Source: a virus. Taken from it: a DNA stretch of 52,813 nt. Below, in pieces: positions 1-5,417 of this stretch. The translations under genes and the position numbers were made by a program. How positions within the stretch are numbered: position 1 is the first letter of the stretch; every line of letters begins with the position of its first letter. The stretch covers positions 1 to 52,813 of the IMG/VR virus record IMGVR_UViG_3300044613_003454, one strand, 5' to 3'. Below the pieces are notes generated by a model, which saw only the letters and a list, made by a program, of their open reading frames with translations, was not told where the DNA came from and searched no databases.

Positions 1-191
1 TGAACCGTTCCCGTAGTAGGCCAGGCAGAGGATCCCTAGCCAAGAATCAGTCAGAGTGACCACCTGATCCGCCCCGCGATTCAGTGGGGGTTCAGGGGTA
101 GCGGACCCCCCGAAGTACCACCGGGCCATCGCCTCGAAGACGGGGAGGGGTATCCGGTTCTCAGATCTTGGACCGGCCGGTCGGTCTTGGG
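1..191. repeat. Terminal direct repeat, left copy
   Basis: These 191 bases recur at the right end of the window (52623-52813). The copies differ at one position that I can see: C at 64 against T at 52686. The repeat holds the last bases of the terminase gene and the start of the small gene between terminase and portal. It therefore sits inside the late operon, which suggests overlap of a circular or circularly permuted genome rather than true T7-style ends. A real terminal redundancy is not excluded. Confidence 0.95.
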
Positions 192-2122
192 TCAGCGGTT
201 CTTGCATCGAGGATCTCGTTGATCTGGTGGGCGTTCAGCTGGGAGAGGTCGAGGCCTTCGCCGATGTGGTGGCCGTTCTCGTAGTAGTCACCGTCCCGCA
301 GCCGCTCGAACAGGGTCTTGTCGTGGTCTGCACCCGGGACCTTGGAGAGGCGGCCCCGGAGGACGAATTGGCTCATGGCGACCGCGTCCAGGCAGTCGTC
401 CTTTTCGAGGCCGCCGTCAGGGGCCTCGGGGTTGAAGGACTCGATCTGGTCGAAGAGGTGCCGCCAGGGAAGCTGGTCGCGACGCCAGAGGGGGAGCTTG
501 ATCTTCCCGTGCTCGAAGCGGAACTGGAGGCCGGCGATCTTGTCCTGCTTCTCCGTCATGCCGGGGTTGAGCTTGACGATCTTGGGCAGGTGGGCGGTGC
601 CGGCCATGTCGTTCGCACGGGTGGAGACGATGGAGGTCAGGGCGTTGAAGAGGGAGACGCCCTGGCGGATCACCTCCGGGTGGACGGTGGGGCACCTCCA
701 GCGGTCCGCCATGTCGAAGACGGCCCGCACCAGCTCGGACTCCTGCCCCTGCCGGGCCCAGAGGTCCAGGACGAACAGGTCGTTCTGGGGGGTCACCGCC
801 ATCAGGCAGCACACCTTGTAGTCGGAGTCGCTGCCCGAGGTGTGTGAGGTGTCGGCGGTCATGAAGGTGCGGCAGTAGGACTGGAGGAAGTCCTTGATCG
901 GCATCTTCTTCCGCTCGGTCACGTCACCCCGACGCTCGTCCCAGCAGATGTAGGCGGTCGAGTTGAGGGGACGGTCGATCCGGTCGTCGATCTCCTCGAA
1001 CCACCAGGCGTGCCGGTCGTCGAGCTCGCCAAAGAACGCGGAGTCCCCGTCGCCGGGGTTGGCGAGATACTCGGAGTTGAAGTTGGCGGAACCGATGGAC
1101 TCCCGGATCTCCTCCAGGGAGAGGGCTTCCTTGAAGCGGGGGCGGGTGACCGCCAACGAAAGGCGTTCCTCACGGGTGGTCGGCCACATGTCCGGCCAGC
1201 AGGACGAGAGGACACCGTCCTCCTCGATGGCGGCGGGGATCACGAGGCGGGACCACCGGTTGAAACGGGGGTCCTTCGCGCGGGCGCCCTCGGGAGTTTC
1301 CTCCAGCTGCATCGCGTGCCAGAGGTAGTGACGCTTCGAGACGAACGTGCCCACCCAATCCACGCCCGTGTCCGGGCGGGTGACCATGGGGATCACGATC
1401 TTGAAGAGGAGCTCGGACATGTACGCCCGCAGCACCGACATCGGGGTCGAGGCCTTCGGGTCGTACTCGGGGTCGTCGAGACGGTAGCGGCGGGGACGGC
1501 CACCTCGCTGCTTCGAGGAGGCGCTCAGGAGGCGGAGCCACGAGCCGTTGTTGAGGATCATGTGCTCCGTGGAGAAGGAGCCCTCGCCGCGACGGGGGAT
1601 GATCCGGCCGCCCTCAAACTCCGGGGCGAAATCGTCGTTCAGGCGTTGGTTATGGATCAGTTGCCGCTTGATCCGCTCGCCCACCTCGCGGGCGTTCGGG
1701 TGCGTGGAGGTCGCGTACACGAACGAGTAGGCCGGCCTCGTGACGAGGCGGAGCAGCATGTCCTTGCAGTTGAGGTACGACTTGGCGGAGCCTCGGGGGG
1801 CCACCGCGGCGGTCATGCGGTACGAGGCCCACTGGCGTAGGAGCACCCAGTGGAACTCAGGGGTCTCCAGGGGCGTGTCGTCGTAGAAGAGCGGATTGAT
1901 GTCCGCATCTTCATCGGGCCAGAGGTAGTAGCGATCAAACCACCATACCGAAGCGACCAGGTTGTCGCCGCGGGTGACTGGATTCTCGTCGAGCAAGAGC
2001 CACTGCCGGCATGCGTTGACGCGAGCCTGACGCTGACCGTCGTCGGTGAGCGTGTCATAGTCGGCCGGCAACGGGTAGTTGGGGTTGCCTTCCGCACGGG
2101 TCTCGATCCTCTTGACGGTCAT
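161..2122 (-). CDS. terL: Terminase large subunit
   Basis: ATPase-nuclease motor that packages DNA through the portal. The product has 653 residues. A Walker A-like motif, APRGSAKS, lies at about residues 108-115, and a Walker B-like segment ending RLDDPE at about 214-219. The C-terminal RNase H-like nuclease shows D424 in MTADTS, acidic residues at about 432-434, and the LEKDDCLDA cluster at about 572-580. The start at 2122 is chosen because its ATG overlaps the upstream stop as ATGA; an open frame continues to 2176 but that part lies inside the neighbour. The next genes downstream, across the contig junction, are a small protein and the portal, which is the expected packaging order. Packaging type (headful or site-specific) cannot be read from this. 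Confidence 0.95.
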   Translation of the reverse strand: MTVKRIETRAEGNPNYPLPADYDTLTDDGQRQARVNACRQWLLLDENPVTRGDNLVASVWWFDRYYLWPDEDADINPLFYDDTPLETPEFHWVLLRQWASYRMTAAVAPRGSAKSYLNCKDMLLRLVTRPAYSFVYATSTHPNAREVGERIKRQLIHNQRLNDDFAPEFEGGRIIPRRGEGSFSTEHMILNNGSWLRLLSASSKQRGGRPRRYRLDDPEYDPKASTPMSVLRAYMSELLFKIVIPMVTRPDTGVDWVGTFVSKRHYLWHAMQLEETPEGARAKDPRFNRWSRLVIPAAIEEDGVLSSCWPDMWPTTREERLSLAVTRPRFKEALSLEEIRESIGSANFNSEYLANPGDGDSAFFGELDDRHAWWFEEIDDRIDRPLNSTAYICWDERRGDVTERKKMPIKDFLQSYCRTFMTADTSHTSGSDSDYKVCCLMAVTPQNDLFVLDLWARQGQESELVRAVFDMADRWRCPTVHPEVIRQGVSLFNALTSIVSTRANDMAGTAHLPKIVKLNPGMTEKQDKIAGLQFRFEHGKIKLPLWRRDQLPWRHLFDQIESFNPEAPDGGLEKDDCLDAVAMSQFVLRGRLSKVPGADHDKTLFERLRDGDYYENGHHIGEGLDLSQLNAHQINEILDARTADPRPTGRSKI

Positions 2123-2508
2123 TCGGTTTCCGGGCGGTACAGGAACATCGGGGTCCCGCTGCCCAGGTACGCACACTCGATGTTGTGCAGGAAGAACTCG
2201 TGGGCCTCCTCAAGGCCCATGTCCTCCGAGAGGACCTCGATGCAGCGGTCGGCGTCGTACACGGCCAGCGGAGGGGACCCCCACTGGACTGCGTAGCCGA
2301 TCAGGGCGTCGTCCATGTTGTCCACGAACAGGGCGTCCGGGTTCATCTCGGAGATGGCTTCCCGCAGACGCTGCCCGTAGTTGACGCGGCGGACCTGCTG
2401 GCGGAGATCCTTGATGGTCTCGATCGCCTCGTCGATGATCGTGTGATCCTCGGACGGGTAATACTCCCGCATCTCCTCCAGCCGCTTCTCGATGTCAGGG
2501 ACGGGCAT
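2119..2508 (-). CDS. Conserved small phage protein upstream of terminase
   Basis: A 129-residue protein with no assigned function. The N-terminal third is a charged helix. It is followed by a segment with ALIGYAVQWGSPPLAVYD and a C-terminal ECAYLGSGTPMFLYRPE, a pattern I associate with short uncharacterised proteins of many aquatic phages; that link is from memory. It overlaps terminase by 4 nt (ATGA) and the upstream gene by 14 nt, so it is probably co-translated with both. No membrane segment or catalytic motif is visible. A role in packaging or early assembly is only inferred from position. Confidence 0.8.
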   Translation of the reverse strand: MPVPDIEKRLEEMREYYPSEDHTIIDEAIETIKDLRQQVRRVNYGQRLREAISEMNPDALFVDNMDDALIGYAVQWGSPPLAVYDADRCIEVLSEDMGLEEAHEFFLHNIECAYLGSGTPMFLYRPETE

Positions 2509-4543: not shown

Positions 4544-4657
4544 TCAGTACGCCTTCTTCTTGGCCTTCGGCATCGCCTTGCCGAACTTCGGCATGGGCTT
4601 GGCGCCGGCCTTCTTGGCGAACGGGTTCATCCCGGCCTTCATGGTCTTCTTCTTCAT
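4544..4657 (-). CDS. Tiny lysine-rich peptide (37 aa)
   Basis: A 37-residue peptide, very rich in lysine, with alternating Lys/Pro/Met/Ala (for example MPKFGKAMPKAKKKAY at the C-terminus). A good ribosome site, AAAGGA, lies seven bases before the ATG at 4657. It is one of five short basic proteins in a row. Similar short basic proteins are common in marine and freshwater T7-like phages; their function is not established. Binding to DNA or RNA is likely from charge alone. Confidence 0.7.
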   Translation of the reverse strand: MKKKTMKAGMNPFAKKAGAKPMPKFGKAMPKAKKKAY

Positions 4658-4716
4658 GGGAGTTCCTTTGTGGAGTACCGGCCACGAGCCGGGTACAGGT
4701 TGGGCGGAGTGTAACG

Positions 4717-4899
4717 TCAGTCCGGAAGGAGGAGGGAGATCCGGATCTCCACCTTCTTGGACTCCTCGCATTCCTCGCAGCCGTAGTCGCACTCCTCGCA
4801 CTCCCCCTCCTTGTCCAGCTTGCCGCCGCACTCGGGGCACTTCTTGGGGTCGTACTTGGACGGCTTGCGGGGCTTCGATTTCAGTGGGGGCATGTCCAT
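4717..4899 (-). CDS. Small zinc-ribbon protein (60 aa)
   Basis: A 60-residue protein with a basic N-terminus (KSKPRKPSKYDPKK) and then three CxxC pairs within about 27 residues: CPEC, CEEC and CEEC. The pairs suggest one or two bound zinc ions. The C-terminus is hydrophobic (ISLLLPD). Codons 3-6 (an internal Met, Pro-Pro-Leu) contain a copy of the dispersed word CCCCCACTGA at 4881-4890. ATG at 4899 and ATG at 4893 are both possible starts. Function unknown; nucleic-acid or protein binding is the usual role of such ribbons. Confidence 0.75.
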   Translation of the reverse strand: MDMPPLKSKPRKPSKYDPKKCPECGGKLDKEGECEECDYGCEECEESKKVEIRISLLLPD

Positions 4900-4900
4900 G

Positions 4901-5152
4901 TCAGCAGTTCCAGGCCCGGAGGCTCTTGTTGATGCGGGAGTTCGGATCGTTCGCGGTCTTGGCGGAAGTGAGGCGCTTCTTCATCCCCTTCATCCGGGCA
5001 CAGAAGCTCCGGCGACGCGGCCCTCCCTCGGGCTGCGGCGCCTTGAGGTTTCCCCCGGTGGCACGGTTGTACGCCTGACGGCCGGCCTCGCTGAGCCCGC
5101 CCTCCGGGTTCTTGTGCTTCGCCTTGAAGTTGAACCGCTTCTTCCCCGCCAT
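4901..5152 (-). CDS. DUF6321 family protein
   Basis: An 83-residue basic protein. It shows the family pattern I recall for DUF6321: NPEGGLSEAGRQAYNRATGG near residues 14-33, then RRRSFCARMKGMKK, ending in LRAWNC. No enzymatic role is known for the family, which occurs widely in phages. The ATG at 5152 overlaps the stop of the upstream 44-residue gene (TGATG), so translation is probably coupled. It is part of the basic mini-protein cluster and may act on nucleic acid or be a minor virion protein. Confidence 0.85.
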   Translation of the reverse strand: MAGKKRFNFKAKHKNPEGGLSEAGRQAYNRATGGNLKAPQPEGGPRRRSFCARMKGMKKRLTSAKTANDPNSRINKSLRAWNC

Positions 5153-5286
5153 CAGCGACCTCGCCCCCAGTTCGACTTCATCTGCTTCCACGACTTGGCG
5201 CTGACCGTGGACTTCGACTTGGGACGCGAAGTGCCTGCCGCCTTGCGACGGTTGATGTTGTAGAGGAGTCCCTTCTTTGCAGCCAT
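5152..5286 (-). CDS. Tiny basic protein, KGLLYNI-type (44 aa)
   Basis: A 44-residue protein that starts MAAKKGLLYNINRRKAAG and stays basic throughout. This opening (KKGL-Y-NI, then RRK) resembles a short protein type seen in many environmental phages, from memory. Start and stop codons overlap both neighbours in the TGATG pattern. Function is unknown. The strong positive charge suggests nucleic-acid contact. Confidence 0.75.
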   Translation of the reverse strand: MAAKKGLLYNINRRKAAGTSRPKSKSTVSAKSWKQMKSNWGRGR

Positions 5287-5417
5287 CACTTGCTCCGCTT
5301 CTTGGGGGCCCGCTTGGGGAGCGACTTCATGTTCGGCGTTTCCTTGGCCCACCGCTTCGCGGTCTTGGGCATCTTCGCGAACATGTACTTCTGCTGGGCT
5401 TTCGACTTGAACGGCAT
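5286..5417 (-). CDS. Tiny basic protein, MPFKSKAQQ-type (43 aa)
   Basis: A 43-residue protein reading MPFKSKAQQKYMFAKMPK..., then KRWAKETPNMKSLPKRAPKK. The SKAQQ-MFA and AKRWAKETPN blocks match a small protein type often seen near packaging genes of aquatic phages, recalled rather than searched. Stop overlaps the next gene's ATG (TGATG). Function unknown. Confidence 0.8.
   Translation of the reverse strand: MPFKSKAQQKYMFAKMPKTAKRWAKETPNMKSLPKRAPKKRSK

Follow-up and report, generated by a model that had tools for sequence, protein, structure and literature searches.

Basic internal head proteins of tailed phages are already known from T4. As described in PMC9026906, the T4 proteins IPI, IPII and IPIII are small and basic, are present at about 300 copies each and bind DNA at low salt; they are ejected on infection and are mostly dispensable in the laboratory. 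A further system is the Chlorella virus PBCV-1, a eukaryotic giant virus in which, according to PMC3281028, the proteins A278L, A282L and A437L place small basic domains, alone or fused to longer proteins, on the packaged DNA. The same paper states that there is no evidence for a large part of basic proteins in neutralising phage DNA. Here we analysed a cassette of tiny genes in a 52,813-nt stretch of viral DNA (IMG/VR record IMGVR_UViG_3300044613_003454, positions 1 to 52,813; hereafter the window). The genes are numbered in transcription order, which runs on the minus strand from 5417 to 4544:

sp1, 5286..5417, minus strand: 43 aa, MPFKSKAQQ family, net charge +14, pI 11.4
sp2, 5152..5286, minus strand: 44 aa, phrog_25774 family (KKGL..NI..R), net charge +13, pI 12.0
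sp3, 4901..5152, minus strand: 83 aa, DUF6321 (PF19846), net charge +17, pI 11.5
sp4, 4717..4899, minus strand: 60 aa, net charge -3, pI 5.0, three CxxC pairs and a C-terminal IxLLLP strand
sp5, 4544..4657, minus strand: 37 aa, low-complexity and rich in Lys/Ala/Pro, net charge +13, pI 10.8
terminase large subunit, 161..2176, minus strand: context gene downstream of the cassette, phrog_38, E 7e-39

A preceding sequence-only reading had listed five tiny ORFs of 37, 60, 83, 44 and 43 codons, four of them strongly basic, and all five are present on the minus strand with sp1, sp2, sp3 and sp5 as the basic members. The TGATG overlaps described for the whole string hold at two of its four junctions (sp1/sp2 and sp2/sp3), while sp3 and sp4 are separated by a 1-nt gap and sp4 and sp5 by 59 nt. 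Likewise, the cassette lies upstream of the terminase gene in the sense of transcription, but the two are about 2.4 kb apart with four ORFs intervening. None of the window's capsid-region ORFs that were scanned against PHROGs received a name, so that portal, scaffold or capsid labels there could be based solely on gene size and order.

The basic cassette proteins resemble the T4 internal proteins in being small and basic (37-83 aa, pI 10.8-12.0), and relatives of sp3 in T4-like cyanophages share with them a protease motif and, in one case, a similar N-terminus. On the other hand, the two sets have no sequence family in common; each window protein has its own micro-gene in a head-to-tail series, and none has a capsid-targeting start. 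T4 ipII carries a charge of +4 in 100 aa and ipIII +9 in 193 aa, whereas the charge of sp1, sp2 and sp3 is far higher relative to their length. At most, then, the window proteins would work like T4 internal proteins; they are not members of that family. As for PBCV-1, no sequence link of its proteins to sp1-sp3 was shown.

We propose, at a probability of roughly 55%, that sp1, sp2, sp3 and probably sp5 come from a loose, swappable set of small basic internal head proteins of aquatic tailed phages that lie against the packaged DNA. They would be produced late, alongside the products of the head and packaging genes, and go into the head, where they would come to rest against the packaged DNA and neutralise part of its charge, and they may be ejected with it, as T4 internal proteins are; sp4 would be a co-transcribed partner. 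The location of the window's own proteins, their DNA binding and their ejection are what we infer here, DNA binding from charge and the T4 precedent only. By charge arithmetic, which is not evidence, 22% of the DNA phosphates would be balanced if every basic protein were present at an assumed 415 copies.

To assess coding status, dN/dS was calculated against metagenomic relatives. Values were 0.10-0.15 for sp1 (three comparisons, with L009, L111 and L113) and 0.09-0.15 for sp3 (three comparisons), 0.30 and 0.37 for sp2 (vs. L017 and L113, respectively), and 0.33 and 0.36 for sp4. These four genes are under purifying selection and are therefore real. For sp5, values of 0.72 and 0.97 indicated no purifying selection; a short basic ORF occupies its place in L009 and L111, and sp5 is kept as a candidate gene whose coding is unproven. 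That the cassette consists of spurious or decaying ORFs of a GC-rich genome would agree with the sp5 values, yet it is already refuted for sp1-sp4 by their dN/dS of 0.09-0.37 and by the finding of their families in many phages, which leaves this explanation with next to no credibility.

Both family names given earlier, DUF6321 and MPFKSKAQQ, apply to the cassette. The sp3 protein is a clear member of DUF6321, with 80.9 bits against a Pfam cut-off of 28.5 over model positions 1-72 of 72, and it has a conserved FCAR motif and a final W-x-C. The sp1 family is headed by MPFKSKAQQ and has no Pfam name; sp1 is a possible member of phrog_1375 (E 1.8e-4, profile positions 17-47 of 70), and a Pfam search at E up to 1 gave no match to DUF3008 (PF11450). 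Membership of sp2 in phrog_25774 followed from a match at E 8.7e-15 covering positions 3-36 of 42. A zinc ribbon had also been read in one of the proteins; for sp4, the PF07191 match reached 18.6 bits, under the cut-off of 25, and in the sp4 relatives of L007 and L008 an acidic run stands in place of the CxxC pairs while the N-terminus and the IxLLLP strand are kept. The zinc ribbon is therefore not the defining feature of sp4. For sp1, AlphaFold predicted a hairpin of two helices (residues 6-15 and 17-26) followed by a basic, disordered tail (pLDDT 88.4), and for sp3 an all-helical model (pLDDT 80.9). Foldseek searches with both models gave no useful match, and sequence and profile searches of the PDB with sp1, sp3 and the KKGLYANI family returned nothing except one chance hit at E 1.3; the DNA-binding proposal gains no support from any fold or PDB match.

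The set had been said to recur in aquatic phages, which is true of sub-sets. In L111 and L009, which are the closest relatives, the series is sp1-sp3-sp4-sp5-like and sp2 is missing. DUF6321 matched 537 of 50,697 phage records, many cyanophages and pelagiphages among them; sp2 directly matched 24 phage records and its KKGLYANI relatives 84. In pelagiphages, cyanophages, roseophages and metagenomic phages, genes of the sp1, sp2 and DUF6321 families and DUF5872-like genes adjoin one another in variable order near head and terminase genes. For quantification, IMG/VR was scanned with the sp1 alignment and 80 loci were kept, 66 of them with a non-nested sp1. Within 1 kb of the latter, sp2 was found in 21 loci and DUF6321 in 20, and in 31/66 sp1 was accompanied by sp2, DUF6321, a DUF5872-like gene or more than one of these. 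Partner density was 44 hits in 126 kb near sp1 vs. 8 in 380 kb elsewhere in the same loci. Many sp1 loci are near copies, however, and after merging only 6 of 25 non-nested clusters had a partner within 1 kb. Gene order also varies, DUF6321-sp2-sp1 in many loci vs. sp1-sp2-DUF6321 in the window. Searches of named records with DUF3008 and the sp1 profile detected no sp1 in DUF6321-bearing cyanophages, and sp1 and DUF6321 are thus not constant companions. Two further arrangements were seen: some longer proteins (183-361 aa; L127, L131, L160, L164 and L181, at 5001) begin with an sp1-like sequence, and a micro-gene beside DUF6321 (L010:554-928) matched DUF5872 with 43.9 bits against a Pfam cut-off of 27.5.

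The neighbourhood in named phages places these genes close to head and packaging functions. An sp2-type gene adjoins DUF6321 in HTVC200P, P-SCSP1l, Eistla, P60 and CRP-212. The pair sits between the scaffold and capsid genes in HTVC200P and Eistla, after the capsid gene in P-SCSP1l, and one gene ahead of the small terminase in CRP-212, where the DUF6321 match is weak (14.3 bits with Pfam; E 6.5e-7 with a purpose-built model). In HTVC019P, the scaffold/capsid position holds an sp2 gene with no DUF6321 beside it. In P60, the phrog_25774-type micro-gene (L089:5998-6117) overlaps the end of gp45 and is unannotated in the record. Among T4-like cyanophages, the DUF6321 gene lies less than 3 kb from a terminase gene in all 11 records fetched. 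A PHROG scan of the sp1 flanks covered 87 of 119 chosen ORFs, with opposite-strand ORFs left out, and matched 83 families. Among the matches listed (25 of the 83 families), the named ones were mostly terminase, major head, head protease and structural proteins, with metallo-phosphoesterase (four members) and ferredoxin (two) also present; the scan was made without a control set and thus deserves little weight. Proximity to terminase in the T4-like records and, in T7-like pelagiphages, to the genes for scaffold and capsid would suit packaging or assembly helpers as well, that is, proteins that bind DNA, terminase or the acidic scaffold while the head is being filled and are gone from the finished particle. 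Pfam and PHROG searches linked none of the proteins to a family of small terminases or scaffolds, and we regard such a helper role as unlikely.

The window's sp3 stands alone, and of 78 complete DUF6321 copies in IMG/VR, 74 do so or nearly so (≤110 aa). In T4-like cyanophages, by contrast, DUF6321 is the last module of longer proteins, forming the C-terminal end of chains of 104-591 aa (ten full sequences and part of an eleventh), several of which contain further small modules. One of these, KDACY, has a gene of its own next to DUF6321 in L010 and L012, whereas in P-SSM2 and S-SM1 it precedes DUF6321 within one fused protein; the separate and fused forms share 57-60% identity over 30 aa. Modules encoded apart in some phages and joined in others probably work together. 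According to PMC9026906, the T4 prohead protease gp21 cuts after L/I-X-E. In the 11 DUF6321 proteins (one partial) we counted 18 [LI]xE[AGS] sites against 5.8 expected, a number reached in none of 1000 shuffles; since these proteins are related, the site counts are not independent tests. As a control, 41 sites against 34.0 expected were counted in 45 further proteins encoded at these loci (122 of 1000 shuffles). Sites lay no more than 9 aa ahead of a module start, with starts chosen by eye, in 6 of 26 cases vs. 0.84 at random places, and the strict protease site was missing at the other 20 of 26 module junctions. One member, SSZBM1_192 (165 aa), begins with MKTFKQYITEA, and T4 ipII and ipIII begin with MKTYQEFIAEA, with the motif at the matching place; the N-terminus of SSZBM1_192 thus looks like the T4 capsid-targeting sequence. 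By inspection, none of the five window N-termini resembles MKTYQEFIAEA. We suggest that in T4-like cyanophages the prohead protease probably cuts the DUF6321-ended string of modules apart inside the prohead. This proposed polyprotein form predicts that particles of S-SZBM1 or S-RIM2 contain fragments ending after Glu at L/I-X-E. The gp16-gp17 interval of S-SZBM1 that holds the DUF6321 gene also encodes S-SZBM1_194 (L108:5253-7376), a protein of 707 aa that starts with MPAKSVKQQ, matches DUF3008 weakly and contains an S-adenosylmethionine lyase domain.

Published virion proteomes of relatives gave a mixed picture. S-CREM2 ORF137, which has a C-terminal DUF6321 (40.8 bits) but is acidic overall (net charge -20), was detected in virions by mass spectrometry with four unique peptides (Table 3 of PMC10665884); the peptides may come from outside the DUF6321 part. 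SSZBM1_192 is not among the 30 proteins of the S-SZBM1 virion table (PMC9146016). For S-SM1, for which PMC3037559 reports 41 virion proteins, the record annotates the DUF6321 protein as hypothetical and its neighbour as structural, labels which suggest that the DUF6321 protein is outside the 41. The tally is thus one for, one against and a third that is probably against. Standard tryptic methods lose small, very basic proteins, which weakens the negative results. The absence of SSZBM1_192 from its virion table would fit the removal of a packaging helper, while the presence of ORF137 in S-CREM2 virions speaks against removal. In the same S-SZBM1 table, the 87-aa hypothetical protein S-SZBM1_195 (L108:7378-7641), which has no Pfam match, ranks third by emPAI (2.66). 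A term search of the P-SCSP1u cryo-EM paper gave no match, and the P-SSP7 purification paper contains no proteome.

Two of the three proteomes, then, do not support virion presence, as would be expected if the proteins were late intracellular binders of RNA, ribosomes or host DNA that never enter the virion. RNA binding is frequent among small, very basic proteins, and the cysteines of sp4 are of a metal-binding type. Such a role would leave both the head and terminase neighbourhood and the prohead-protease-type sites unexplained, and we hold it to be improbable. The sequence-only reading had offered three roles, namely DNA condensation, action on RNA and small virion proteins. Nothing tested points to RNA, and DNA binding is conjectured from charge and the T4 precedent only; the virion role, inside the head, is the one favoured by the relatives because of their head and packaging position, the protease-like sites, the start resembling a capsid-targeting sequence and one detection by mass spectrometry. 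The statement that the set has no known role was in line with the literature, as no paper containing DUF6321 or MPFKSKAQ was found in a search light on subscription papers; nor did a search with few such papers find the multi-family aquatic cassette, the polyprotein form or the overprinted copy described below in print. If the internal head role is true, it would give a testable function to hundreds of unannotated small genes and reopen the question whether, besides ions and polyamines, tailed phages also use proteins to cope with the charge of their packaged DNA.

A further form of sp1 is overprinted on giant genes. A match in elemo phage, taken at first as a domain of a 3695-aa structural protein, was rejected as such on translation, which placed it in a separate 42-aa ORF in another frame. 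In 14 of the 80 sp1 loci, sp1 lies wholly inside a same-strand open frame of 762-2789 codons; with elemo phage and the Manatee Spring podovirus this makes 16 nested cases, all in one relative frame:

nested sp1 loci (14): L139, L145, L146, L151, L155, L159, L163, L165, L168, L169, L170, L178, L184, L185
further nested sp1 copies: L001:8001-8126 and L094:6001-6129

The nested sp1 genes are 42-54 aa long. Across 13 cluster representatives, mean identity was 62% in the sp1 frame, 36% in the giant frame over the same bases and 13-15% in the giant-frame flanks, and the sp1 frame was better conserved than the giant frame in 78/78 pairs. As the small frame is conserved better than the giant one, sp1 is kept by selection even though it is overprinted; the giant-gene sequence flanking it is otherwise unrelated between loci. 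A Shine-Dalgarno-like stretch was noted within the giant gene for some nested copies (L139, L151 and L155).

Taken broadly, these forms can be read as one tool-kit of chromatin-like micro-modules that coat packaged DNA and are shared by aquatic tailed phages, an idea we put forward tentatively and with considerable doubt. The modules would be deployed as strings of overlapping micro-genes, as in the window, as polyproteins cut by the prohead protease in T4-like cyanophages, or as a gene overprinted in another frame of giant genes in Bacteroidetes-type podoviruses, and the DUF5872 part would be common to algal giant viruses. If true, this would contradict the view, given in PMC3281028, that basic proteins hardly neutralise phage DNA. 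One algal giant virus has annotated members of both DUF5872 and DUF5754. In L139 and L155, DUF6321 directly follows the giant gene. The giant host gene at L139:2039-9823 matches phrog_10089, DarB-like antirestriction (E 9.6e-41).
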